From NCBI RefSeq assembly GCF_048128805.1, contig NC_136016.1, positions 19,204,676 to 19,268,675 of the forward strand: a stretch of 64,000 bases of DNA, read 5' to 3'. Of this stretch, positions 6,049 through 52,244 are shown one piece after another. Numbering within the stretch: position 1 is the first letter of the stretch; the number at the start of each line of letters is the position of its first letter. The translations under genes and the position numbers were made by a program. This DNA is from Centroberyx gerrardi (taxonomy: Eukaryota; Chordata; Actinopteri; Beryciformes; Berycidae). The notes under the pieces are model-generated. The model was not told the DNA's origin. It saw only the letters and a program-made list of their open reading frames with translations, and searched no databases.

Positions 6049-7915
6049 TCATGGGACCGCAGGCTGGTAGACATGTAAGTTTTCATAAATAGTACAGTCT
6101 TCATCACCAGCAGAGCAGCCCCTCACTTTGTCCAGTGTTTCGTATTCAGGAGACACGGACTGGATATCCAGAGCTGCGTAGGGGTCAGCGTTGGGGTCGG
6201 GAGGCTCTGGGACCAAACTGCTACACCTCTTCTTCATTTTGAGGACCAGAAAAGCCCCCGCCACCGTTATCGCAACAACCAACCCGACGCCAGCACTGGC
6301 CGCAAATATTTTAGAAAACATGCTTTTGTCTGCGGGTTTCAGGTATTTGCTGAGGTTCTGGGCCGTGGAGTTCTGAGCTGTGATGCGGTTCGCAGCCTCG
6401 CAGAGATACAGGTCATCGTCCTGGAAACCGGCAGCGACGATGAAGTCCTTTCTCCCTCCTCTCTGCAGCACCTCCTCTCCCTCTCTGCTCCTCCTGTACC
6501 AGGTGTATCCGTGCGCAGGAGGGTTGGCGTCGCTGCTGCAGGTCAGCGTCATTACACCGCCCTTTGTTGTTCCGTCACCTGGGATTTCAACCGACACCGT
6601 GGTGTTTCTGGGACCGTATCGGACGCCGAGATTGACAGCCGACGACGGGTGGTCTTCGTAGCCAGTCATAGCGCAGGAGTAGCTGCCTGCGTCCTCATTA
6701 CTGATCGGGTCCAAAGGCAGCAAGCTCGCGATTGCCCTGCTGCCACTTAGCAGCAGTCTGTTCTTGTACCAGATGTAGGCTGGGTCGGGGTTTGCAGCAC
6801 AGCCGGGGACACAAGTCAGTATTATCCTCTGACCCTCTGTCACTTCCTGCTCAGCAACAAGCGCTCTCCGGCCCTTAACAATCTCCTCCACCAGGACAGA
6901 CACAGCAGAAACACGGATATGGAGCCACACACCAGGAGAACCCATACAGGTCCTGTTGACTGAGAAATACCTGAAATAGTAGAGAAAAGAGGGTAACGCT
7001 TTATTTTCCGGGTCCGCTCTTTCCTAATAATTTCCTAGAAAGGAACTGTCCTGGAAAGAAACATGAAATTATGTTCTAATTATAGGGAAAATAGAGAAAG
7101 AGTTCAATGGTAGTTGGGAAGTACCTCCAATTTCTTCGGCTGTTTCCAAGACAGAACCATGAAATGATGTAGTAGTTTAGAAATTAACTAAAATTAATTC
7201 AACAAATAACTATATTATATAATGACCTCTGATAATTGACCTCTGCTTATTATTTTTCCAATAGTTTATAGTTTTGCAGTTCTTTCCAGAAAATTCTTTT
7301 AGAAATGTTCAGTATCTTATCAACTCCACCAGACTGCTTACATTTTCTGCATAGCTACTAGATCATTTCATGGTTCTTTCCAAGAAACTTCCTAAGAAAT
7401 TAACAGTTCCTTTCTAGGGAAATTATTCGGAAATTGTGGACTCTGAAAATAAGGCGTTACCTAAAAGAGTAATAGGACGTGTCGCTCTCTTTTAAGTCTG
7501 TGATTCTCAGGGTGCAGTCGTTCCCTCCACCTCTGGCGTACTGCATTCGACCTGAAAATGCCGTGACCTGGTTCAGGTTTTCAGGTTTCATTTTAGGGTC
7601 CAATCGTTTGGACCAGAACATGTCGGAGACCTGTGTGTTACTGGAAAAGGAGCAGGGAATCTCCACCGACGAGCCCTCGAAGCCGCAGATTTTGCTCTGC
7701 TTGTAGGTCACACACCGGATCGTAGCTAGTCTCCCTGAAGTACAAAACACAAAGTATACAGGCATTAGGAAGATGTTGAAGAAGAAGTTGAGAAGTTGAG
7801 ACCAAGAGGCCAAAAGTTGAAACTAGAGTAATAGCGATGGTGTGATGAAATCTTTACCTGCCACAGGAAATAACACTAAGAGAGAGGACAAAAATACACA
7901 TCCTGCTGCCTCCAT
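6049..7915 (-). CDS. Siglec/CD22-like inhibitory immunoglobulin receptor, transposon-split V-set exon
   Basis: Predicted type I membrane receptor of the sialic-acid-binding Ig lectin family, the group often labelled CD22-like in fish, acting at the leukocyte surface. Exons on the minus strand are 7915-7858 (start ATG and signal peptide), 7734-7461 (most of the V-set domain) and 6970-6049 (rest of V-set, two C2 domains, membrane segment, tail). Phases join to 417 aa. Family marks are the V-set Cys before Ser-Phe, Asp-Cys-Thr-Leu-Arg-Ile, and an F-strand Tyr-x-Phe-Arg. C2 cysteines lie near residues 164/210 and 255/301. The membrane helix is about 330-354. The tail has tyrosines near 375, 387, 406 and 412 in Tyr-x-x-Leu contexts, with Thr-Ile-Tyr-Glu-Asn-Leu resembling an ITSM. 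Intron 2 is almost entirely a 470-bp transposon. The third exon carries domains normally encoded by separate exons. The family call is firm. Whether the locus makes a functional protein is unproven. Confidence 0.72.
6992..7461. mobile_element. 470-bp hAT-like inverted-repeat element inside the Siglec-like V-set exon
   Basis: The ends are GGTAACGC at 6992-6999 and GCGTTACC at 7454-7461. The terminal inverted repeats extend for about 57 nt with roughly 85% identity by eye, both running to a shared TAGAAAGGAACTG block. Flanks are gAAAAGAG (6984-6991) and tAAAAGAG (7462-7469), an 8-bp target duplication matching at 7 of 8 positions, as expected for hAT-type transposition. The interior repeats an AACCATGAAATGAT motif on both sides and has no transposase frame, so this is a non-autonomous element. 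In gene orientation the terminal repeat begins one base before the predicted splice donor. Confidence 0.75.
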
Positions 7916-9626: not shown

Positions 9627-9800
9627 TCACTGCCCTCTCCCTGTCTGAAATATCATCTCTTCCTCTCTGCTCGTCTTCCACCAGATGTATTCATGCACAT
9701 GTGGGGTGGAAACACTGCCGCAGGTCAGAGTCTCTGCAGCGCCTCCTGAAGACACTTTGACTGACACTGTGGTGTGTCTGGGCCGCCTGTATCCTCGCTG
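9627..9800 (-). pseudogene. Ig C2-domain fragment, decayed paralogue of the Siglec-like gene
   Basis: Read on the minus strand, this encodes Arg-His-Thr-Thr-Val-Ser-Val followed by Leu-Thr-Cys-Gly-Ser and Glu-Tyr-Ile-Trp-Trp, collinear with the second C2 domain of the gene at 6.0-7.9 kb (Arg-Asn-Thr-Thr-Val-Ser-Val, Leu-Thr-Cys-Ser-Ser, Gly-Tyr-Thr-Trp-Tyr). It stops at 9627 just after the C strand, before the second cysteine, and its upstream sequence is not Ig-like. The same strand and close position suggest a local tandem duplication that decayed. Confidence 0.7.
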
Positions 9801-11929: not shown

Positions 11930-12830
11930 CTGAAGAGAAACGAGGCCCTACTCCTTAGTGGGTACTTGATATTTATATATTGTTAGGTTATTTTGCCCCT
12001 ATACCATTTGCATTCACAACAGCTTCAATCACACAAGTCCTGAACTGTGCAGTGAGATATTGGACCTTTCTTCAAAAAGGAAAGCCTCCAGCTCTTTGAG
12101 GGATGAAGGAGGTGGAAATCTACTTTCCCATAAAGGTTCAGTGAAGTTTAGATCTGCTGATTGGGGCCATGGAAGGAGTTTGACTTCATCCTGGAGTTCA
12201 TGAAACCACTCTTGAATTTGTTTATCAGTGTGTATGCGGGCATTATCATCTTGGAATACGGGAACATCATGTGGGAACAGTGTTTGCACCACAGGGTGCA
12301 GCTGGTCCTGTAAAATGGCCTCATATTCCTCTGGCTTTATACGGCCATGCAGAGGAATCATCAGCCCTAATGACATTCATGACACTCCGGATATAAGAGA
12401 AACATTGAAAGACGACTCATCAGACTGTGTTACCTTCCTCCACTGCTCATGGCGTCAGGTTTTGTGCTCCTTACACCAGGTTATGCGTCTTTGTGTAGCA
12501 GCTTCTGAATGGCAGCCCTGCTTTAAATACCAGCTTTATGAAGCTCATAACGTACAGTTTTGATTGAGAGTCACAGAGGTCTTTAACTTCTGTGGTGATT
12601 TTTTTTCAGGCTGTATTTTTATGCCGTTTAGTGCGTCCGTCTGTCTCTGTTGATGAGCTTCAACTTGCAGCCGCTGTTCCTCTCTGCCTGTCTGTTTGTC
12701 TGTGTTTGACACGTCATGATTTTCCAGACTGTTCCCTTTGCCACATTAAATAATCTTGCAGTTGCACCAGCACAGACTATTTGGCCTCTTTGTTAGTTGC
12801 CTCATGTCTTCTGAAAAAACACATACTGTC
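11930..12830 (-). pseudogene. Decayed Tc1/mariner-type transposase
   Basis: The minus strand carries the C-terminal half of a Tc1-like transposase. Phe-Gln-Asp-Asp-Asn-Ala-Arg-Ile-His-Thr holds the second catalytic Asp region, and Pro-Trp-Pro-Gln-Ser-Ala-Asp-Leu-Asn-Phe-Thr-Glu-Pro-Leu-Trp-Glu corresponds to the family's Trp-Pro-x-x-Ser-Pro-Asp-Leu-Asn-Pro-x-Glu-x-Leu-Trp motif. The longest open part is 12029-12376. Upstream to about 12580, further family words (Arg-Tyr-Glu-Leu-His-Lys-Ala-Gly, Arg-Ala-Ala) appear in other frames and are broken by stops. The copy is dead. Terminal repeats could not be placed with confidence. Confidence 0.75.
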
Positions 12831-26545: not shown

Positions 26546-29500
26546 ATGCCTGCTAACGGGAATCGTCCCTTGAAGTTGCAGTTTGGTCTGATCAACCATG
26601 AGAGCCGCTACCTCACCGCTGAGGCCTTTGGCTTCAAGGTACAGACTGCCATCTAACATAACATGAGCCACTTGATGGGCGCTTTTATCCAAAGCACCTT
26701 AAAATACCATGAGTGCGTACATTTTTGCATGGGTGGCCCCTGTGGGAATTAATAGTGTTGGTGCCTTGCCTTGCCTGTTGAGCTGTACAGGAACACATTA
26801 AGGTATGCAGACAGTAAATCATGCTCCAACCTGCCAGGTTTGTCATATAGTTACAGTATAATTCTCCTATATGCATGCAAGGCGCTGTTAACTGTTTACT
26901 TGCTCTGTGCTGGAATATTTTCTATGTATATCAGTGCAGTGAGCCATCCTTGTCTCCAGTGGTAGAAAGAATACTAAAACATCCTACTCAAGTAGTAGTA
27001 GTCTACTGTTACTTTGCTGATATTTAAGTACTGGTGTATAAAGTAGCTCATTTAAAATGTACTTAATTGTAAGTAAAAGTTACTGAGTTACTATTTAGAA
27101 AAGACAATATTGTTAGATGAGTCTTTCCTATGCAACTCTAATAGGACGAGAGGACAGAGTTCAAACTAGATTCTTTTAATTGGAAAATCACAGGCCCTCT
27201 AAACAAAAAATGGGCCGCCTGGCATTCAGATGTGAATTACAAGTGTAGTTTGTAAAGTGTCTGTACAATCTTGCAATCTCAAGCTATGTATAGTGGCCAT
27301 GTTCTGTTTTTTTGTTAATGCATAAGCACAGTTTCAATCATCAAACTGTATTTCAATATTTCATTGAACAAATGTAATTTATTAAAAATGTTATACTCGC
27401 TGTAAAGTGTAATTGTGTAAAATTAGTACTCATTCATGAAAACTGAATTGCATTCAGTCCATTTTGTGGTGTGGTTAGGTTGGGGTACAGGGGGCCCCAT
27501 AGCAATTCTGGCACCCCGGCCCCTGGTGAACCTCTTACGCCCCTGCTTCCCATCTTCTTGTCTCTCAGGTGAACGCGTCAGCGCCCAGCCTGAAGAAGAA
27601 GCAGATCTGGACGCTGGAGCAGGACTCCCAGGACACCCAGGTGGTCTACCTGCGCAGCCACCTGGGCCGCTACCTGGCCTCCGACAAGGACGGCAAGGTC
27701 ACCTGCGAGGCGGACGGGCGCAACTCCGACTCCCGCTTCCTCATCGTGGCGCAGTCGGACGGCCGCTGGGCCCTGCAGTCCGAGCAGCACCTCCGCTTCT
27801 TCGGCGGCTCCCGGGACTACCTGTCCTGCTTCGCCCAGTTCATCACGGACGCCGAGCTGTGGGCGATGCACCTGGCGCTCCACCCGCAGGCCAACCTGCT
27901 GTCCGTGGCCCGCAAGCGCTACGCCCACCTGTCCATGGAGGACGGGGAGATCGCCGTGGACCGGAACATCCCGTGGGGCGTGGCGGCGCTGCTCACCCTG
28001 GTCTACCTGGACGGGAAGTACTGCCTCAAGACCTGCGACAGCCGCTTCCTCAGCAACGACGGCAAGCTGCTGGCGCAGAGCGGCAGGGCCACGGCCTACA
28101 CACTGGAGCTGAAGTGTGGGAAGCTGGCCTTTAAAGACTGCGAGGGGAAGTACCTGTCCCCCATGGGGCCCACGGGCACCCTGAGGTCCGGACGATGCTC
28201 CAAGCCGGGCAAGGACGAGCTGTTTGATCTAGAGGAGAGCCACCCACAGGTGGTGCTGATGGCAGCCAATGGGCGATACGTCTCCATAAGACAAGGTAGG
28301 AAGACACACACACACAAAGGTGTAGATTTGGGGGGAAACAGGTGAAACATGTAGCTACCCCTCAATATTAAGAGGAACTATCCCCTTACTATTTCTGCCT
28401 CTGACACATATACTGTATTTTACTCACTTTGTGTTTTTAGAGGCACAGCTGAGATCCACCAAAACATATTTTATGATTGGCTTTGGTCACTAATGCAAAC
28501 GCTCCTTCCCTTAAAAAATGGATCCCTTCCCTTTGTTTCTTTTAAAGCCTTTAAAGGCATTTCAACAACCAATCAGACTGCCATGTTTCATATTTTGGGG
28601 TTCAGTTTTGTAATGTCTCACTGTATTTTATATTGACCAATAATATCACCCCTCTCTCTCTCTCATACATGCACACTTTTCTCATATAAAGTAGCATGTT
28701 TTGTTTAAATTCTGCTGAAAACAGAGCTGCATTTATGCTACTACCATGCCAATAGTATGTCAGTGCTCATGGTTTGAACCAGAGTGTGTCCCCACCTCCA
28801 AAAATTTAAATGAAACCTACACCCTTGCACACACACACACACACATACACACACACACACACACACGAATTGGAGGCGATACAGCCACATATCTGATGAT
28901 ACGTTGCCCTGAAGCATGGCACGCACGTACAAGCTGTACTTCTGGGATCCTGTTAGTTTCCTTATTGAGAAGGTCATGCAAAGAATCACAGGACATCATT
29001 ATGTTAAAATGGACCAAGGTGCTGCTGAGGATCAACACAGACAGCAGCCTACACACATACATAATGAAGCAGAGGGGCCGCTACAACTGCTACACCTACT
29101 ACAGTTACTACTACTAGCCTATATTCATACTGTGCACCGATACACCCGGAGAAAACTGAGCTGTCCGATGCACAGGAAGTACATTAGCTAGTGGACATGC
29201 TGAATATGCATGGTCCTGGAATAGACCACTCTCAAATGATTGACAGCTGATAGGGGGTGCACGGTAATTATGGGTAATGTAGTCTGGGGCCGTTCACGTG
29301 CCTGTCTTCTTTATCTGCACATCGACATCACATTGGATCTGGCTGGATCTTTCCAGGAAAACAAGATAGACGCGGCCGATATGGGAGACTTGAGACTCGA
29401 ACTTGAATACACTTGAATACGTCATTTGTGTTGGAGGCTTGCCCATTGATTCAGTCTGTAAGAAAGTCTTTGACAAGTGGGTGATTTGTGCAAACTGATA

Positions 29501-41776: not shown

Positions 41777-44700
41777 TTAGATAATGAGGAGAGGATTTTG
41801 TCTGAGTTGTTGGTAGACACCGAGGAGAGACTGGGTCGTCTGCCCTCTGGACAAACCCACGCCAAAGGCCTCTGGGATTCGACTTTGCTGGATCTGGTGC
41901 AACAAGAGCTGGAGAGGAGCAGGAAAAGAAAAAGGACATCCACTTAAAACCACTGAGTGCATCTGTTTTTACCGAGCTGGCTGACAGGCTGAGAAAGATA
42001 TTAACAGACTGAATAGGTCTTACCTCAGCCTGCTGTAGTGCCCGTCTTAAACCCAATCTCTCCACTCTCATTGTGCAAGCAGCTTTCTCCTTCTCAGGAA
42101 CCTTCTGCAACAGAGTCTGAGTCACGGGACAGAGCAGAAGATGAAAGGAGTTTCAAACCTTAGAAACCTCTTCAGTGTTTGTCAAAGTCATCCTCCTGTA
42201 GGTTTCTCTCTGAAAATAACGGAAAGGTTGGCTGTGAGTGTGTTTGTACCTGTACCCGGCGTAACACGGCATGGTGCAGTCCACACACAGCAGCCATGGA
42301 CGAGCTCTCCACCTGGACCTCCACTGCAGTCAGGGGAACCTCGTCCTTCCCAACGCTCTCCTCCCCTACATTCACCTGGAGAACACAGATGCAACACTGG
42401 CTTTCAACTCTCAGCTAATCTCTCTCGACAGAATGTGTGCTTTCAGTTGTTTAAAGGGGCGGGACCAGCATATCTTGACAGTCAAATGTTTTCTCGATTC
42501 ACGATTGGGTGAGGGAGGCACTTAGAAGACTAGGCGGGGATTCAACAGGGAAATGTGTCGGCTGTGTTCTGTTAACATGGCTTTTAAGAAAACATTAAAA
42601 ACATTCAAACTCTTCCCGAAACTAGTCAAAAGGCATGCAGAAGCATCACATTTCAAAAGTAAATACCTTAAACAGAGATGTTGCACCAGTTTAAACATTG
42701 AAAATTAATGTAAAGTGGAAAGTTTTGACAGAAGTTGGTTGAAAATGTCGGCCATCAAGTACATGTTTACCTTTTCTCTGTTGTTTTATGCTGGAATGAA
42801 ACACAAGACACAACGCACAGGGTACAACTTCATTAATACAATATTAACAGTGATGCTACCACATACCTCTTTTGCAGTCAGTTTGACTGTGTGTCCATCT
42901 GGACCTCGAGCATGGACCACTGAGCTGCCGTGGGCACTCTTGTCTCTTGGGGGTCCCATCTCACCTCCTGCAGGACCTTGGGACAGCAGCCAGTCCAGCA
43001 GAGAGACACACAGACTTGGAGGAGACAGCTTTGGCCCCTGGGGGTCCAAATCTGGGGCTTTCAACACCAGTGCAGCACTCAGCAGCTCTGACGACACCCT
43101 AACTCTTGCTGAGTACTGCTCTCGCTCAGGCCTTGAAGCACTCTCTCCCTCCCCGCTCCCAGTCCAGCTGACCCGACGAGTGCTTAAAAAAGCTTGGATG
43201 CCATCCATGGTGCTCCCTGTGGACTGAGAGGTGATATTTTTGTGGGAGGTTGTGGTTCTGTTCACCTGCAGGGAATCCAACCAATCAACTGTCAGTGTGT
43301 CCAAAGCCAAACTGACACAACTACCGTACAATCCCAGGAGTCTGGCCGCCTCCTCCTCTCCCAGCAGACTTTTCAACGAGAAGATGAGTGAGCAGCTCAC
43401 TGTCATGGGGAAGCATGAGTCACCTGCAGCTGCAAGGGGCAAAGATACTTCTAACTTTTCCCCTGGATGGAGATTGAGGAATGGGAATGAGAAAGTTCTG
43501 GAGGAGCTTTCCCCTCCTGCAGTGAGAGAGTAGGACAGAGGAAACACAGTGATGCTCAATGTCCAGCCTCGTTCCAGAACGTAAGGACTAGCATTATCCA
43601 GGACACAAGTCAGGTTCAACGAGTCTTTTTGAAGCAATCTGCTCCAACTGGTCACAGCATGACATCTGATTGGCTTCTCCTGGATATGAGGCTGCTCTTC
43701 ACTATTCCTACTGGCTAGCAGCAGGAAGCTGATGTTGAGCACCTGATTCAGGTTCCTGAGAATTTGGTTTTTGGATTTGATGGTGCTTTTCAATTCTGAT
43801 GCTCTGAGGGAAAGGAAGTGAAAGCACATTCAGATCAGGTCATATTAGCTATAATAACGTTTTCAGGTGTTTTGTATTTCACTCACAACCAAGAGGAAAT
43901 CAAGGTGAGTATACCTCTGACATACATCTCCGATAGCAGCCAGGAGGTCCCTGACACTCTGGCCCACCTGTGCTGAGTGGAGGCTGGGTAATCCTGCATC
44001 CTCTCTCCCCTTAGGCAGGGTAATCCTCTGGAGCCTCCCGCTGGCAGAGAGCACAAGCAGCTGAACTGCACCTGATGATGAGGCATCACAGCAATGTTTA
44101 AAGTCAGGAAAAAACACATGGTTTGGTCTGAAGTGCATATGAGAGGGTTTCCAGGGGCATGATGAGTTAGACTCAGCAAAAGAAAGGCAACACATATAGA
44201 GAGATACAAACATACAAGATAGAAATCTTAATTTAACCAAAATGCAAAGGAACCATGTCACCACTTCCACTGTGGTCCCAGTCTGGTTACCTGCAGCGTT
44301 GTGTGTAGCTCCAGCCAGGGCGACAACTCTGCAGACATTTAAACTGACGGGGCTTTGCAGGACAGCAGTAACTGTCCTGCTGGTCGTCTCCTCACCGCGG
44401 CCCGCAGCCTCACCCCGTCCTGGGCCTGCTCTCTCTGCCGGTCCCCCTGGTAGGTCCAGCACCAGCAGGTCTGAACCGGTGCTGTAGTAAAGATGGCGTT
44501 CATCCACACACCCACACACCACGGGTCCCGGCACGCACCCCTCCGTAAAACCAGCTACCTTGCCCCCTACCTCCGGCCCGCCCTCGTCGGTCCTGATCAG
44601 CACCACCCTCCCCAGTCCGCCCACTGCCACCAAACACCGAGCCTCCCCCAGGCCCGTTTCCGTGACAACAGATGCTCCGACGAACACGACTGGCTGCTCG

Positions 44701-46225
44701 AGGCTATGCAGGACTCGGACCCGCGACCCTGGGGGGAGACGCAGAGGGAGGAAGCACAGGCGACCGTCGGGCAGGCCGCAAAGGATTATGGGTGACCTGA
44801 CGAGGGCCGCGTCAACCCCAAACAGAAGCTTGAAGAGCAGTGGCTCAAGGCGAAAATGGCCGTCCCCGAGTGTTGCCTCTGATGATGACGATAACATGGA
44901 GGGAGAGGAAGATGGCGGTGGTTCGTCACTGGAGTGGACACAAATCACCACAGGCTTCCTCCCAAGTCCGCTCTTCATCTTCCTCTCTTTGTCGTCATGT
45001 AAACTAACTGAAACCACTGGGAGACTGAGCTCAGCGAGCTTCTCATAGCTGCTGGACGTCGACTGTCTGGAGGCCGGTGTTTTGTACAGAGTAAACCACC
45101 ACAGTGTGTCTCTCTGGGAAAGGGTGAGGAGAACAGAGCCGACCAGGAGCAGAGAACACACTCCTTCCTCTCCAACAGCAAGACAGTCAGAAGAGATTTT
45201 CAGCTCAGCCGGGCTGGAGGAGACGTTAGCCGGGGAGCTGGGAACCCTGGAGGGGTGAAAGGTCACATTTAAGTTAAGAGTCACTGTCTTTCTTCAGTGT
45301 TTAAATAGACTGAATGGATTTATTTGACAAATTTCAGTTAACAGCACATTGACAGAAGATATACATGAACTAGAAAAGGTTACATTTTCTAAATAAAATG
45401 TGTGCTTGCTTCAGTTTCATATAAAAAAAAAAATAGCTTGCTTCAGTTTGAAAGGTTAAAAGTTAAATTCAGAAATTCATTCATTTAGAAAGTGTAGATG
45501 TGTTTAGGATTTGATTACTCTAGAAATATTATTATTACTATTTGATTATTATTATAATTAGAATGAAATGGAATGACAGCTGACTTGTAAATACAATGAA
45601 ATTAAAGTCTCATGTTTTATTGCACCTGCAGTTGCTAGGTAATTACTAGTGCTTGCTAGGATGCTGCTAAGCGGTCGCTAGGTGATTACTAATGGTCGCT
45701 AGGGTGTTACTAGGCGGTTGCTAAGTGACTACTAATGGTTTCTAGGATGTTACTGGGTGGCTTCAAGGATGTCCCCATCTGAACTGTACATTTTGGCTCA
45801 TACCTGGACAGCAGATTTGGTAAGTTGACACAGTAAACTCCACTCTCACAGGCCACATAGAGGAGCTGCTTATCATGACTGTGAACCAGGTCAGACACAG
45901 GACCGGGGAACTGAAGAACAGCCTGCAACAAGAGGAAAAGCAAGGGAACTGTCTAACATTAGCAGCCATAGCAAATGACGAGGCAAATCTATCTTAACAA
46001 CCTGTCCACAGTCCAGCTAAATGCTTGCCTGGTAAATCTACAGTCCAACGCCCCAGATAGTAAACGTACTGTTAGTTTTCTCTGTTGAATATTGAAGACA
46101 ACGATCTCGTCGCCACCTGGATAGAGCAACACATCTGTCCCAACAGTAAACACGACTTTCGATGTGCATGCTGCTGCCGAACAGCCAAACTCTGCCCAAG
46201 TCTCAACAGCACACCGTCCTTCCAT
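41777..46225 (-). CDS. faap100: FANCA-associated protein FAAP100 (Fanconi anaemia core complex subunit)
   Basis: A nuclear scaffold that joins FANCB and FANCL in the catalytic module of the Fanconi core complex, which ubiquitinates FANCD2-FANCI during interstrand-crosslink repair. Eight coding exons on the minus strand are 46225-46070, 45922-45804, 45246-44291, 44071-43915, 43803-42867, 42375-42250, 42116-42024 and 41908-41777. All junctions are GT-AG and in phase, giving 891 aa against about 881 in human. Landmarks matching the human protein are Leu-Thr-Ala-(Val/Ala) with Phe-Pro-(Gly/Asp) at the exon 1-2 join, Leu-Cys-Gly-Leu-Pro-Asp-Gly in exon 3, Trp-Ser-Arg-Leu then Gly-Trp-Thr-Leu in exon 5, Ala-Val-Glu-(Val/Ile)-Gln-Val-Glu-Ser-Ser-Ser in exon 6, and the final Val-Tyr-x-Gln-Leu-Arg. 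The start Met is the one whose length to this core best fits human. An open frame extends further upstream but is not conserved. The gene is head to head with birc5. Confidence 0.93.
45631..45765. repeat. Minisatellite in faap100 intron 2
   Basis: About six diverged 20-22 bp units of the form GGT(T/C)GCTAGG(T/G)..TTACTA. GCTAGG or GCTAAG recurs throughout. The tract ends about 40 bp before the coding exon at 45804, close to its splice donor on the minus strand. Confidence 0.75.
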
Positions 46226-46820: not shown

Positions 46821-49800
46821 ATGGAGCCATCAAACGAAGAGGAAACCAAAATGTATTTTTACGAAAACAGACTGAAAACTTACGTGGGTTGGCCATTCGA
46901 CGAAGACTGCAGTTGTACCCCGGAGAACGTGAGTAAACGTTTCAATCTTAACGCCAGACGTTAGCTAGCTAATGTTAGCGAGGCTTGCTGCTTGCATGTA
47001 AAACAACAAAACAAATCAGTGTTCAGTTGAGAAAAACAAATGGTATTAAGTGGGAAAACGTTACAACCATACCGAGGGTGTATCGGTTAATCAGAACTTC
47101 CCGCAGCGTTAACATTAGTTTTGCTAACTAGCTAAAGCTTTGAATGCTGTTTTGAAGTATTTAGCCACATGTAAAGTGTCTTTTGTTGATTTGATTTTGT
47201 CTGGATATGTGTCGTTTCACTGCAGATGGCCAAAGCTGGCTTCATCCACACGCCTTTAGAAAACAGTCCTGACATCGCCAAGTGTTTCTTCTGCCTCAAA
47301 GAGCTGGAGGGCTGGGAGCCGGAGGATGACCCAGAGTAAGACGACTGTTCAGTAACGTTACAGTAGGACATGGGTGTACCTTCATCTCATCTACAAATTA
47401 ACTTTAACATGTCTTGCTAATCCAATTCTAAAGATTTTCTTTCTCTGGAGCCTATACTGAAAAGTTTGGATAAGATGAAATGATTCAGTAGGGAAAACAG
47501 ACAAATAGAATATAAAATAAGTAATAAAACAATGAAACAAAGTAATAAAATAGGATGTCAACCGTAGACTATATTGGTAGGAAATATGGGGAGAACTTGC
47601 AATGAAAGCCAGTCATTAGACCGAGTATGATGTGGTCCAAAGGACCGGTCTAGCATAGATGTGATATAATGCCGCTTTTCCACCGCATGGTACCGGCTCG
47701 ACATTGAGGGGGTACTATCTGCAGTGGAAAACCAAAGTGGTACTACCAAAAGCGAGTCAAGTCAACTTTTTCAAACAGGATGCAATGATGAGTGCTATAA
47801 ACATCACCAGTAATAAACCTAAGAGCAGAATGGTAAACAGCATCCAAGGGCTTAAGAGTAGAGGCAGAGGCATGCCTATAAATTACATCACCATAATCTA
47901 TGACAGAGAGAAAAACAACTTCAACAATCCTTTTCCTACAAACCATAGGAAAGTTAGTTCTATTTCTATACAAAAAAAAACAATTTTCTGTCGTAATTTG
48001 TTGACAAGATTGTCTATATGAAATTTGAATGTGAATTTGTCATCTATCCAAATACCAAGGTATTTATATTCTGTAACTCTCTCAATAATGGATCCTTGTA
48101 CAGTGGAAATATGACAGTTTTTGCTACCATTATCACTAATTATAGAGAATAACATAAACTTAGTTTTATGTGCATTCAGTACAAGTTTAAGATCATTAAG
48201 TGCAGCTTGGAGAACGTCAAAGGAATGTAGGTTCTCCACAGCTAGCTGAGCAGAGTCTGCAATGCAATACAATATTGTATCATCCGCGTATAAATGTGCA
48301 TGGCAATTGGTTAAAGATGAAAAAATATTATTAATATAAATTGTAAAAAGAACTGGACCCAGAATTGAACCTTGTGGAACACCCTTAGTTATCGATAAAA
48401 ACTCTGAACGAATAGTTCCCAAGTTCACTGACTGCTGCCGATCAGATAGGTAATTCAGGAACCATGCATAAGCACTTGAACTAAAACCAACATTATTTAA
48501 AATATATAAAAGCAAGGAATGATCAACAGTGTCAAATGCCTTGGAGAGGTCCACAAAGATGGCCGCACAATGTTTTTTCTCATCCAAGGCATTGACAATG
48601 TCATTCACAACCAAAGTGATGGCAGAAACAGTGCTGTGCAAGGGCCTGAACCCGGATTGATGCGGACTCAGAACAGAGTATGCGGCTTAAGTTGACAATT
48701 TACCAGTGACTCTAGAATTTTAGCCAAACAAGACAATTTGGATATTGGTCTATAGTTATTTGGATCACTCCTTTCTCCACCCTTATGCAGGGGGATGACA
48801 TGAGCAGTTTTCCAGACTCTGGGAACTACACCAGTAGAAATAGAAAGGTTAAAAATGTGAGTTATTTGCTCAGCAATTAGTGGAGCAGAAAGATGAAGGA
48901 AAAAAGGATCCAAATTGTCTTCACCAGTAGATTTCTTAGGATCAATGGTTTGAAGAGCCTCAATAGCTACGCTGAGAGAGACAGGATCTAGAATAAACTG
49001 AGAGGCATAATTTGTAGTAGGTTCATAATCATGATTAATGAAAAGATGGTCAATATTAGTAGAAGGGGATTCCCTATTCTCATCCTCAAAAATGTGGCCA
49101 GCTGCTGCAAAGTGTCCATTAAAGGCAGAACAGATCTCACTATGATCATGTACTAAGCAATCATCAAACTTGACATGAGTAGGTAGAGAGGCAGCAGAAT
49201 TGCTGTTATTAGATTTTACCACTTTACAAAATTTTGCAGGGTTTGAATAAGAGCTAGAGACCAAGTTCAAATAATAATCAGATTTAGCCTTTCTCACAAG
49301 GGACGTACATTTATTTCTAATCTTTCTAAATGAAGCCCAGTGGGATTCCTCTGTAGTGCATCTTGCGAGAGACCAAGGTTTGTTTCTTGCCATGAATAAG
49401 GTTGGTAGTTCAGGGGAAAACCATGGACTAGATCAATTTTTCACTCTAATCTTTTTAAAAGGTGCATGCTTATTTACGATAGAGAGGAACGCATTTGTAA
49501 AAAAAATCTAAAGCTAATTCAACATCAGGAATTCCAGATGTAAGATTAATGTTGCTATCATACAGATCGTTTAGAAAAGCTTGTTCATTAAAATTTCTTA
49601 CATTTCTCTTAACTATAATTGGTGATGAAGTTCTCTTCAAGTGTGTGTTCCTAATACATGCAATAGGACAATGATCACTAATTCCTAAGTCGAAAACACC
49701 ACTTGCAATGATATTGTTACTCCTGTTAGAAAAAATTAAATCAATTAGTGTAGATCTTAAAGGGTTCTTCAGATTAGGCCTGGTGGGTTCATTGATCAAT

Positions 49801-52244
49801 TGAGATAAATTGAGGCTAGAAGAAACCTCCTTTAAATAATCAGAAGCAACAGTCAACCAATCAATGTTAAAATCTCCCAAGACTATCATTTCCGAGTTGT
49901 TATACCGGGAGAGTAACTCTGCCAAATAATCAATAGAGCCAGCATCAGCTGAAGGAGGTCTATAAATCCCAATTACAACAATGGAGTTATTAGACCCAAT
50001 ATTTATCTTTAAGGCAATAAATTCAAAACATTTGGGCATGGTAATGGCGTTTAAGATAGAAACAGAAAAGCAAGATTTGACATAGATGGCCACCCCACTG
50101 CCCCTTCCAATTCTGTCAATTCTAAAAAGATTATAGTCATTCAAGGCCACCTCAGAATCACTAATGCTATTTTTAAGCCATGTTTCTGAAAGGGCCAAAA
50201 TATCTGGATCAGCTTGAGAGACTAATAAATTCAAGTGATCAAGTTTCTGATGCTGGAGCAGACTTCTAATATTCCAATGAATCAATCCTAAGCCTTTTCT
50301 GATCTTAAGCTTATATGGATTATTTAGACAGAATGGAATGGACTCGGGTAGGCATGTCTGAGGAGGAGAAGAATTACATGGAATAACAGAATTAAAACTC
50401 AGAGAGGCTGCAGGCACAGCTTCAGGTATATAAGGGGGATCGGAGACAAGACAACTATTTGACAAACTATTTTCAGATGTAGGTAGTTGTCAGGCCAGCG
50501 ATGCTATAGAATTAATACAGTCTGAAGTCAGTTGCTTTACTCCCAGTCCATTTGGATGAATACCATCCTTTTTGTACAGGTCCTCCCTGGGCCAGAACGA
50601 TTCAAAATTGCTTATGAATCCATATCCAGTAGCAGTACAGAAGTTCTGTAACCAGCAATGCAGGCTAAAAAAGCGACTAAAAAAATAGAAATTATGCTAT
50701 ATAAGTATGTATAAAATATTAGCAGTATATAGTAAGGGAGATATGTGAACACTGAAGAGTTAAATGTGAATACATAGTAATATTCATGATGTGAAAATGT
50801 GCCTCATAAGTCTATAAGGAGCAGCCAAATACTTAATTCTTACTAAAAGCACAGCTATTTCTCTGGCCAGGATTCCTCTTTTGGCTGACTGGTAACTAGA
50901 TGTTCAAGTTCCCATGTGGGAGAGCCACTGATAAATAAAAAGAAATAGTTGCATCCTCTGTTGTTTGCTACTGAAGTGCAGCCTGAAGCCAGTTCATTAG
51001 TTTTTCAATTAGTATTCCAGTGCTCTCACAGTCATTCTGCTGTAGGGACATCAAGCAGAAAACCACCATAGTTCACAAAAAGAAAGAACAGTGCATACAT
51101 TTATACAGAGGTACATGACGTGCTGTTAACACCACCAGTACACATTTTCTTGTTATAAACCACATACACCAGTGGATTTGTGTGCACATGACTTTAGCTC
51201 CTACAGTTAGTCTAAATAGATGTTGAAACAGCCCATGTTCAGCTACGTTTTTAATTTCTCATTGAACTTATTCAGTCTTGTCAAGGAAATGGAAAATATA
51301 GGGAAAGTCAGGAAATTTGGTAAATTCTCTGGGGAATATCAGGGAATTTTACAAATGGATTGCATTACCAGCAATATACCAGAACGTATTTTACAACTTA
51401 GTTCACATATTTATTGCATTAGATGTTGTTTTCAGCTTTCTCCACAGCAAGCCTGCCCAACTGTAGTGAAAACCAGACTGTTTACCCCTTCAGAACCTTT
51501 CTTGGCTGAAAAACATCAACAACCCAGGAAGTAATAAAAGTTTTCTATCATGGAAACACTCCTTTTTAGTCATGGAAAAGTCATGGAATTTTACATCAGG
51601 GCCATGGTGGAAATATTCCCACACTCAGTTTCCCTTCAAACTTTGCCAGTGGATGGTGTAGAAAAGGCACAGCAGCAGTACACACATTCTCTGGTTTGCG
51701 TGGAAAGATGACTATGCCTCCTATCTGTGCATACACAATTTGCACAGCGCCCTTGGATTTGACTCTTATCTGCACAGTCAAAGTGTGGCTCCTCATCTCT
51801 TTCTCTTTCTTTGCCAGAAAGGAGCACAATTCTCACTCCTCGTCCTGCCACTTCATCGTCCTGAAGAAGAGCGTGGAGGAACTGACCGTGGAGGAATTCC
51901 TCAAACTGCAGAAGGAGAGACAGAAGTTTATCATAGTACGTGCTTCTGAGGACACCATAAAATATCAATTTGCGATTACTGGCTTACATAATACACCATT
52001 TAATCAATTGAGTTAACTAATTTAAGTCACATTAAAGAACATGACTGCCAACAGCAAAACAGACGTCTAAAAATGGCAAATTGTAACTGTCTGTGAGAAC
52101 AAGAGATGCTGACAACTTATCTGATCCAAATATATTTTCTTCCGCTCACAGAACAAAAGCTGCAATGAAGCCATCACCAAGTTTGAGGAGGCGGCCAAAC
52201 TGAGGAGAGCAGAACTAATCAAGACAGCCATGGATGAAGAGTGA
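46821..52244 (+). CDS. birc5: Survivin (baculoviral IAP repeat-containing 5)
   Basis: A chromosomal passenger complex subunit that targets Aurora B with borealin and INCENP to centromeres and the spindle midzone. It also has anti-apoptotic activity in vertebrates. Exons are 46821-46928, 47226-47335, 51818-51935 and 52152-52244. Phases agree and give 142 aa, the same length as human survivin. The single BIR domain spans about residues 14-85 with zinc ligands Cys56, Cys59, His76 and Cys83. Thr33 in Cys-Thr-Pro-Glu matches the CDK1 site Thr34. The C-terminal part is the expected long amphipathic helix. Intron 2 (4.5 kb) is expanded by an antisense LINE. An ATTAAA at 52434-52439 is a likely poly(A) signal. 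Fish may carry two copies, and which one this is cannot be told from the window. Confidence 0.97.
47650..47750. repeat. Fragment of an interspersed element next to the LINE 3' end
   Basis: GCTTTTCCACCGCATGGTACC and, 50 bp on, AGTGGAAAACC are roughly inverted and include GGTACCGGCTCGA, a word I associate with a common fish DNA element. It is short and of uncertain extent, within birc5 intron 2. Confidence 0.35.
47755..50695 (-). mobile_element. L2-like LINE, 5'-truncated and decayed, antisense in birc5 intron 2
   Basis: From 5' to 3' on the minus strand: an ORF1 remnant (about 50690-50490) with Lys-Asp-Gly-Ile-His-Pro-Asn, the Asp-His block of SGNH-type esterase ORF1 proteins; an endonuclease (50465-49470) with His-Trp-Asn-Ile-Arg, Ser-Glu-Thr-Trp-Leu, Gly-Asp-Phe-Asn-Ile and Ser-Asp-His-Cys-Pro; a linker part (49393-48668); and reverse transcriptase (48641-47743) with Asp-Leu-Ser-Lys-Ala-Phe-Asp, Gly-Val-Pro-Gln-Gly-Ser and the catalytic Tyr-Ala-Asp-Asp. 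ORF2 is broken by frame changes near 49.43, 48.65 and 47.9 kb, so the copy cannot be active. Esterase-type ORF1 and domain order fit the L2/CR1 group. Confidence 0.85.
50700..51817. other. Remainder of birc5 intron 2
   Basis: AT-rich sequence with no recognised exon. A pyrimidine-rich run ending in TTTGCCAG forms the acceptor of birc5 exon 3 at 51816-51817. A 104-codon frame at 51220-51534 has no recognisable features. Confidence 0.5.

Follow-up and report, generated by a model that had tools for sequence, protein, structure and literature searches.

In a Siglec/CD22-like receptor gene of Centroberyx gerrardi, the insertion of a DNA transposon probably created a new spliced intron within an immunoglobulin V-set exon, at the cost of four codons; we put the probability of this reading at roughly 0.7. 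The gene lies on the reverse strand of the window, the 64,000-nucleotide stretch of contig NC_136016.1 that we analysed and to which all positions refer. A transposon-made intron had been proposed here in a preliminary description, and a repeat family in the same genome, 8-bp target-site duplications, an uninterrupted orthologous exon and a frame-restoring pair of splice sites all agree with it. According to the model we favour, a non-autonomous element with 8-bp target duplications would have entered a single V-set exon in the lineage of Centroberyx or close to it.

By its sequence matches, the gene is a Siglec/CD22-like receptor, with a CD22-related first V-set domain followed by C2 domains. 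Pfam detects V-set, Ig_CD22 and two more immunoglobulin stretches in its product, and its relatives by sequence in the PDB include CD22, MAG and Siglec-8, as well as other immunoglobulin proteins such as VEGFR2. Spliced-frame reconstruction places exon 1, which encodes the signal peptide (MEAAGCVFLSSLLVLFPVAG), at 7858-7915 (minus strand); splice-site scoring and the frame place intron 1, an ordinary GT-AG intron, at 7735-7857 (minus). Exon 2 (7461-7734, minus) holds the first part of the V-set, while exon 3 (6049-6970, minus) carries the rest of it, two C2 domains, a membrane span and a tail in one uninterrupted frame ending with a stop at 6049. Intron 1 has been kept, yet the whole of 6049-7734 (minus), from V-set to tail, is one exon if the proposed new intron is set aside; matches to relatives on C3 lie apart from one another, as though they belonged to several exons. 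Because the one-exon layout is shared by the window gene and its relatives P0001 and P0009, it looks like the outcome of an old cDNA-mediated loss of 3' introns or a semi-processed retrocopy.

Elsewhere in the window, 9636-9785 (minus) resembles the receptor's second C2 domain, at 46% over residues 230-283; nothing else of the gene is matched alongside it, and it is perhaps a partial copy. The neighbouring sequence also contains FAAP100 (42786-45293, minus), a piece of a fascin gene (27530-28345, plus; PF06268), a Tc1-like DDE transposase fragment (12029-12376, minus; PF13358, below its cut-off) and a LINE retrotransposon remnant (47898-50489, minus). The last of these has an endonuclease domain (PF03372) followed by frames that resemble reverse transcriptase by eye, one of which was run against Pfam and found no match. 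In three pieces, FAAP100 agrees with its C. gerrardi counterpart at 320 of 321, 54 of 60 and 305 of 314 residues, the 60-residue piece reaching into intron at its edges; the next match listed stands at 72%, which places the window in Centroberyx or a near relative within Berycidae.

The element within the receptor exon is 470 bp long (6992-7461, minus) and has GGTAACGC...GCGTTACC ends, exactly as first described. Its imperfect inverted repeats, put at about 57 nt in the preliminary description, were recovered as 44 nt at 84% complementarity and an adjoining 19 nt at 95%. It is a member of a multi-copy non-autonomous TIR (MITE) family with 8-bp duplications in the fish's own genome, where a search with the element returned 485 candidates (40 of these scored) and the terminal pattern, allowing at most one mismatch, matched 214 times, against 0 for the reversed control. 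We fetched 39 copies and retained the 27 with both ends by the criterion used, dropping 12. In these 27, the match between the two flanks peaks at exactly 8 bp, with a mean of 61%, compared with 30-39% at lengths of 4-7 and 9-11 bp. The 8-bp duplication is perfect in three copies and matches at 7 or more of its 8 positions in nine, whereas shuffled flanks gave a mean of 0.33 such copies and a maximum of three. By these flank statistics, the 7-of-8 duplication noted earlier at the window copy is above chance; its upstream copy in gene sense, CTCTTTTA (7462-7469, minus), is still exon, and its downstream copy, CTCTTTTC (6984-6991, minus), now lies in a pyrimidine tract.

Against the family consensus, the window copy shows seven gap events and, over 465 aligned bases, 27 substitutions. 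Changes common to at most one other copy, which we call private, number 14 substitutions over the same 465 bases and two gap events. Its first eight bases are identical to the consensus, so the splice donor they contain arrived with the element. A text search of the literature for these eight bases found none among the papers listed, and a search for the KDZ superfamily gave no match, its 14 controls being equally silent. Two other members deserve mention: one (L015) sits within an apparently ordinary intron of what is presumably a gene for a myosin regulatory light chain, and another (L091, 480-1517) reaches 1038 bp, twice the usual length, with a perfect 8-bp duplication. We also looked for further copies that might act as introns, using an open-frame screen of 43 distinct two-ended copies (27 copies plus 20 pairs from a second set, with four repeats removed). 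It revealed no clear case, and no second copy had a clearly coding frame on either side; the longest shorter-side open frame beside a copy is 58 residues (L093) and lacks a coding look.

The proposed new intron spans 490 nt (6971-7460, minus), is in phase 2 and splits an arginine codon as AG/G (here and below, a slash marks a splice boundary). Exon 2 ends on the opening base of the element, whose terminal repeat would thereby supply the donor G/GTAACG. An unspliced message reads AGG TAA and stops at the donor's own TAA (7457-7459, minus), in frame and part of GTAA. The acceptor, TATTTCAG/G, would be former coding sequence ending 13 nt past the duplication, with its pyrimidine tract extended by the duplicated CTCTTTT. 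A branch point may come from the other repeat end, where GTTAC, a plausible candidate by motif only, places its A at 6994 (minus), 23 nt ahead of the base that ends the intron. Splicing would then take out the element, one copy of the duplication and four former codons, all in frame, and rebuild the arginine codon at the junction.

Joining donor to acceptor does restore the frame, as had been claimed; with exon 1 included, the spliced reading stays open for 417 residues. The region offers 1335 donor-acceptor pairs, of which 111 stay in frame as far as the normal stop; 7460/6971 ranks first of these and second overall. The splice-score tables behind these ranks consist of approximate frequencies. 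By these scores acceptor 6971 falls in the top 0.11% of the 8779 AGs in the window, and donor 7460, weak with its C at +5, gets no further than the top 4.2% of 7509 GTs. The top pair overall starts at 7341 within the element, a cryptic donor that scores above 7460, and leaves the TAA in the message, which would make it unproductive. We infer that the cell splices out the element, and likewise the order of events.

A weak donor alongside a stronger, unproductive one inside the element is also what might be seen if the insertion had simply broken the gene, with splicing absent or inefficient and the frame of a recent pseudogene not yet decayed. We consider this unlikely. The frame is whole, the exon 1 and intron 1 sites are intact, and the acceptor that restores the frame outscores every other in the region by a wide margin. 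No C. gerrardi product of the receptor gene appears among the best 120 of 599 protein matches listed, and a junction-spanning protein search for fragments from the same species gave 17 matches, all examined, none near-identical, which fits a dead gene; C. gerrardi FAAP100 is present in the protein set searched. We also simulated neutral decay of the 1194-nt coding part, with 20000 runs per setting. At the private rates the frame survived in 194/20000 runs and at full divergence in 0/20000, against decay without constraint. Survival was not negligible with 2% substitutions and 0.3% indels (805/20000), at half the private rates (1930/20000) and at the private rate without indels (5997/20000), settings more lenient towards a pseudogene, and the upstream half alone stayed open in 6462/20000 runs at private rates. 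Taken together, the simulations favour constraint after insertion, but do not prove it.

In the closest orthologue, P0001 (60% identity, the best protein match among the best 120 of 599 listed), a single open frame on a 2337-bp contig extends out of intron-like sequence and takes in the V domain, two C2 domains, the membrane span and the tail; P0009 has a similar single frame with one C2 domain only. As these single frames extend from intron-like sequence, both appear to be genomic. Neither has an intron, an element or a break in its V-set at the insertion position; with the closest orthologue uninterrupted there, the insertion is derived. Own-genome paralogues were rejected as proxies for the ancestral exon, none being close (the best other by E-value is 41% identical and covers part of the V-set).

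Where the element sits in the window, P0001 has DTSYYYVTYHFNYFSGVKRTC; the window without the element and one duplication (the empty site) gives DTSYYSF(I/L)YYFRYFSVNRTC, and after splicing it gives DTSYYSFRYFSVNRTC. The motif bounded by DxSxY and TC is readable in 8 of 15 relatives and spans 14 residues in all eight, compared with 13 in the empty site and 9 in the spliced product; it was not found in P0043 and six more distant proteins of the 15. Given 14 residues in all eight readable relatives, the 13 nt between duplication and acceptor (TCTACTATTTCAG; 6971-6983, minus) were probably exon, encoding Y, Y, F and part of R, and now serve as acceptor, so that splicing probably deletes four former codons. 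The preliminary description had allowed these 13 nt to be either former exon or former intron; the protein alignments make exon the probable answer. Whole-sequence alignment scores favour the empty-site form for 8 of the 15 relatives, all of them among the nine nearest, where the exception is P0020 (342 to 341 against the empty site), and the spliced form for all six more distant relatives.

The preference of these six would also be expected if the exon had once been four codons shorter, with the acceptor within the duplicated CTCTTTTAG, and 12 nt (CTCTACTATTTC) had been added to the new intron later. Removing the 12 nt gives an 8/8 duplication and an intron gained without loss, and canonical CD22-like paralogues do have the short strand. 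We nevertheless regard a later 12-nt insertion as improbable: the long form, at 14 residues, occurs in all eight orthologues with the motif, the empty-site form aligns better with eight of the nine nearest relatives, and opposite the (I/L)YYFRYFS that the 12 nt encode, P0001 reads TYHFNYFS. That the element merely lengthened a pre-existing intron is more improbable still, to the point of being negligible, for although some immunoglobulin superfamily genes carry introns within V domains, P0001 and P0009 run unbroken across the position (the comparison with fish lacking the element that had been proposed as a check, which uncovered no older intron), it is coding sequence that was duplicated, and the element begins on the last exon base.

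If, as we favour, the insertion created the intron with the loss of four codons, its effect on the protein can be read in strand F of the V domain. The spliced V domain scores 41.6 bits against the Ig_CD22 model, versus 33.5 and 33.6 for two element-free forms, and 34.2 bits against the V-set model, versus 31.5 and 31.8. The canonical strand of fish CD22-like proteins is DSAEYKFRF (for example in P0244, P0245 and P0246), and the orthologues have four residues more, such as DASRYYFVYKFR in P0004. The spliced strand, earlier called family-typical, is therefore typical of the wider CD22 family and shorter than that of its own orthologues. The extra four residues of the orthologue clade would stand before the conserved Y-x-F-R of strand F, a motif present in six of the eight orthologues with a readable stretch and absent from P0001 and P0020. 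Splicing would join the first Y-x-F to the arginine, whose codon is rebuilt at the junction, and so produce a canonical CD22/Siglec strand.

YKFRF of P0246 aligns to YNFRF of sialoadhesin (1od7), with the R at chain position 97, which we take to be the essential sialic-acid-binding arginine of strand F; with the two fish sequences side by side, the R of the spliced YSFRY falls by eye in the same place. The element falls immediately after the Phe of YYSF. When antibody light chains are aligned to it, their conserved strand-F cysteine falls opposite either the S or the F of YYSF; this places the insertion at the V/J border, where the stretch filled by V(D)J joining starts. The new intron may have returned the strand to an older length. 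A bolder version, that it undid the four-residue addition of the orthologue clade and is a natural counterpart, solved by splicing, of the insertion believed to have split the first V exon of antigen receptors, we offer only tentatively and think it more doubtful than not.

Transposon-derived introns are well documented, and recruitment of splice sites from neighbouring exons, as well as insertion or deletion of neighbouring codons, has been reported (cited passages of PMC9860276). Among animals and land plants, the same passages place introners in two animal groups and report no pattern of gain in vertebrates. Like the DNA-transposon introners described there, the window element has inverted repeats, target duplications and one splice site of its own, the other coming from neighbouring sequence; unlike those families, with several introns per genome, it has no second case among the 43 copies (PMC9860276, in part). 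A 2012 review lists transposon-insertion introns in Oryza, Drosophila, Oikopleura and Zea in the section cited (PMC3443670). A transposon-like intron has been described in a fish before: according to the excerpt of a 2025 publication (PMC12357937), intron 3 of slc26a2 in notothenioid fishes was gained via the element NTE-1. It resembles the gain proposed here in that a repeat having both inverted ends and direct repeats was inserted into a fish gene; the NTE-1 intron has its gt-ag within its repeats, 4-nt direct repeats and tgt...aca ends (same excerpt), in contrast to the 8-bp duplication, GGTAACGC ends and probable four-codon loss seen here.

As in the transposon and split-gene origin of antigen receptors, at least as outlined in the relevant part of PMC10322711, a TIR element splits a receptor exon, although any mending of the break here would take place in RNA and not in DNA. 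The case also resembles intronization as presented in part of PMC12124190, since a piece of exon, the 13 nt beside the acceptor, would have turned into intron, and differs from it in that the new intron is mostly transposon. Neither the receptor gene nor the element is named among the open-licence literature matches listed.

Vertebrates reportedly gain introns rarely, and how they do so can seldom be seen. In this case the element and its family are still legible, as are the duplication and the probable former exon, and an uninterrupted orthologue is at hand, so that every step of the proposed gain is testable. With its location at the end of strand F in an immune V-set domain, this gene would make a useful model of how an exon may survive a transposon.
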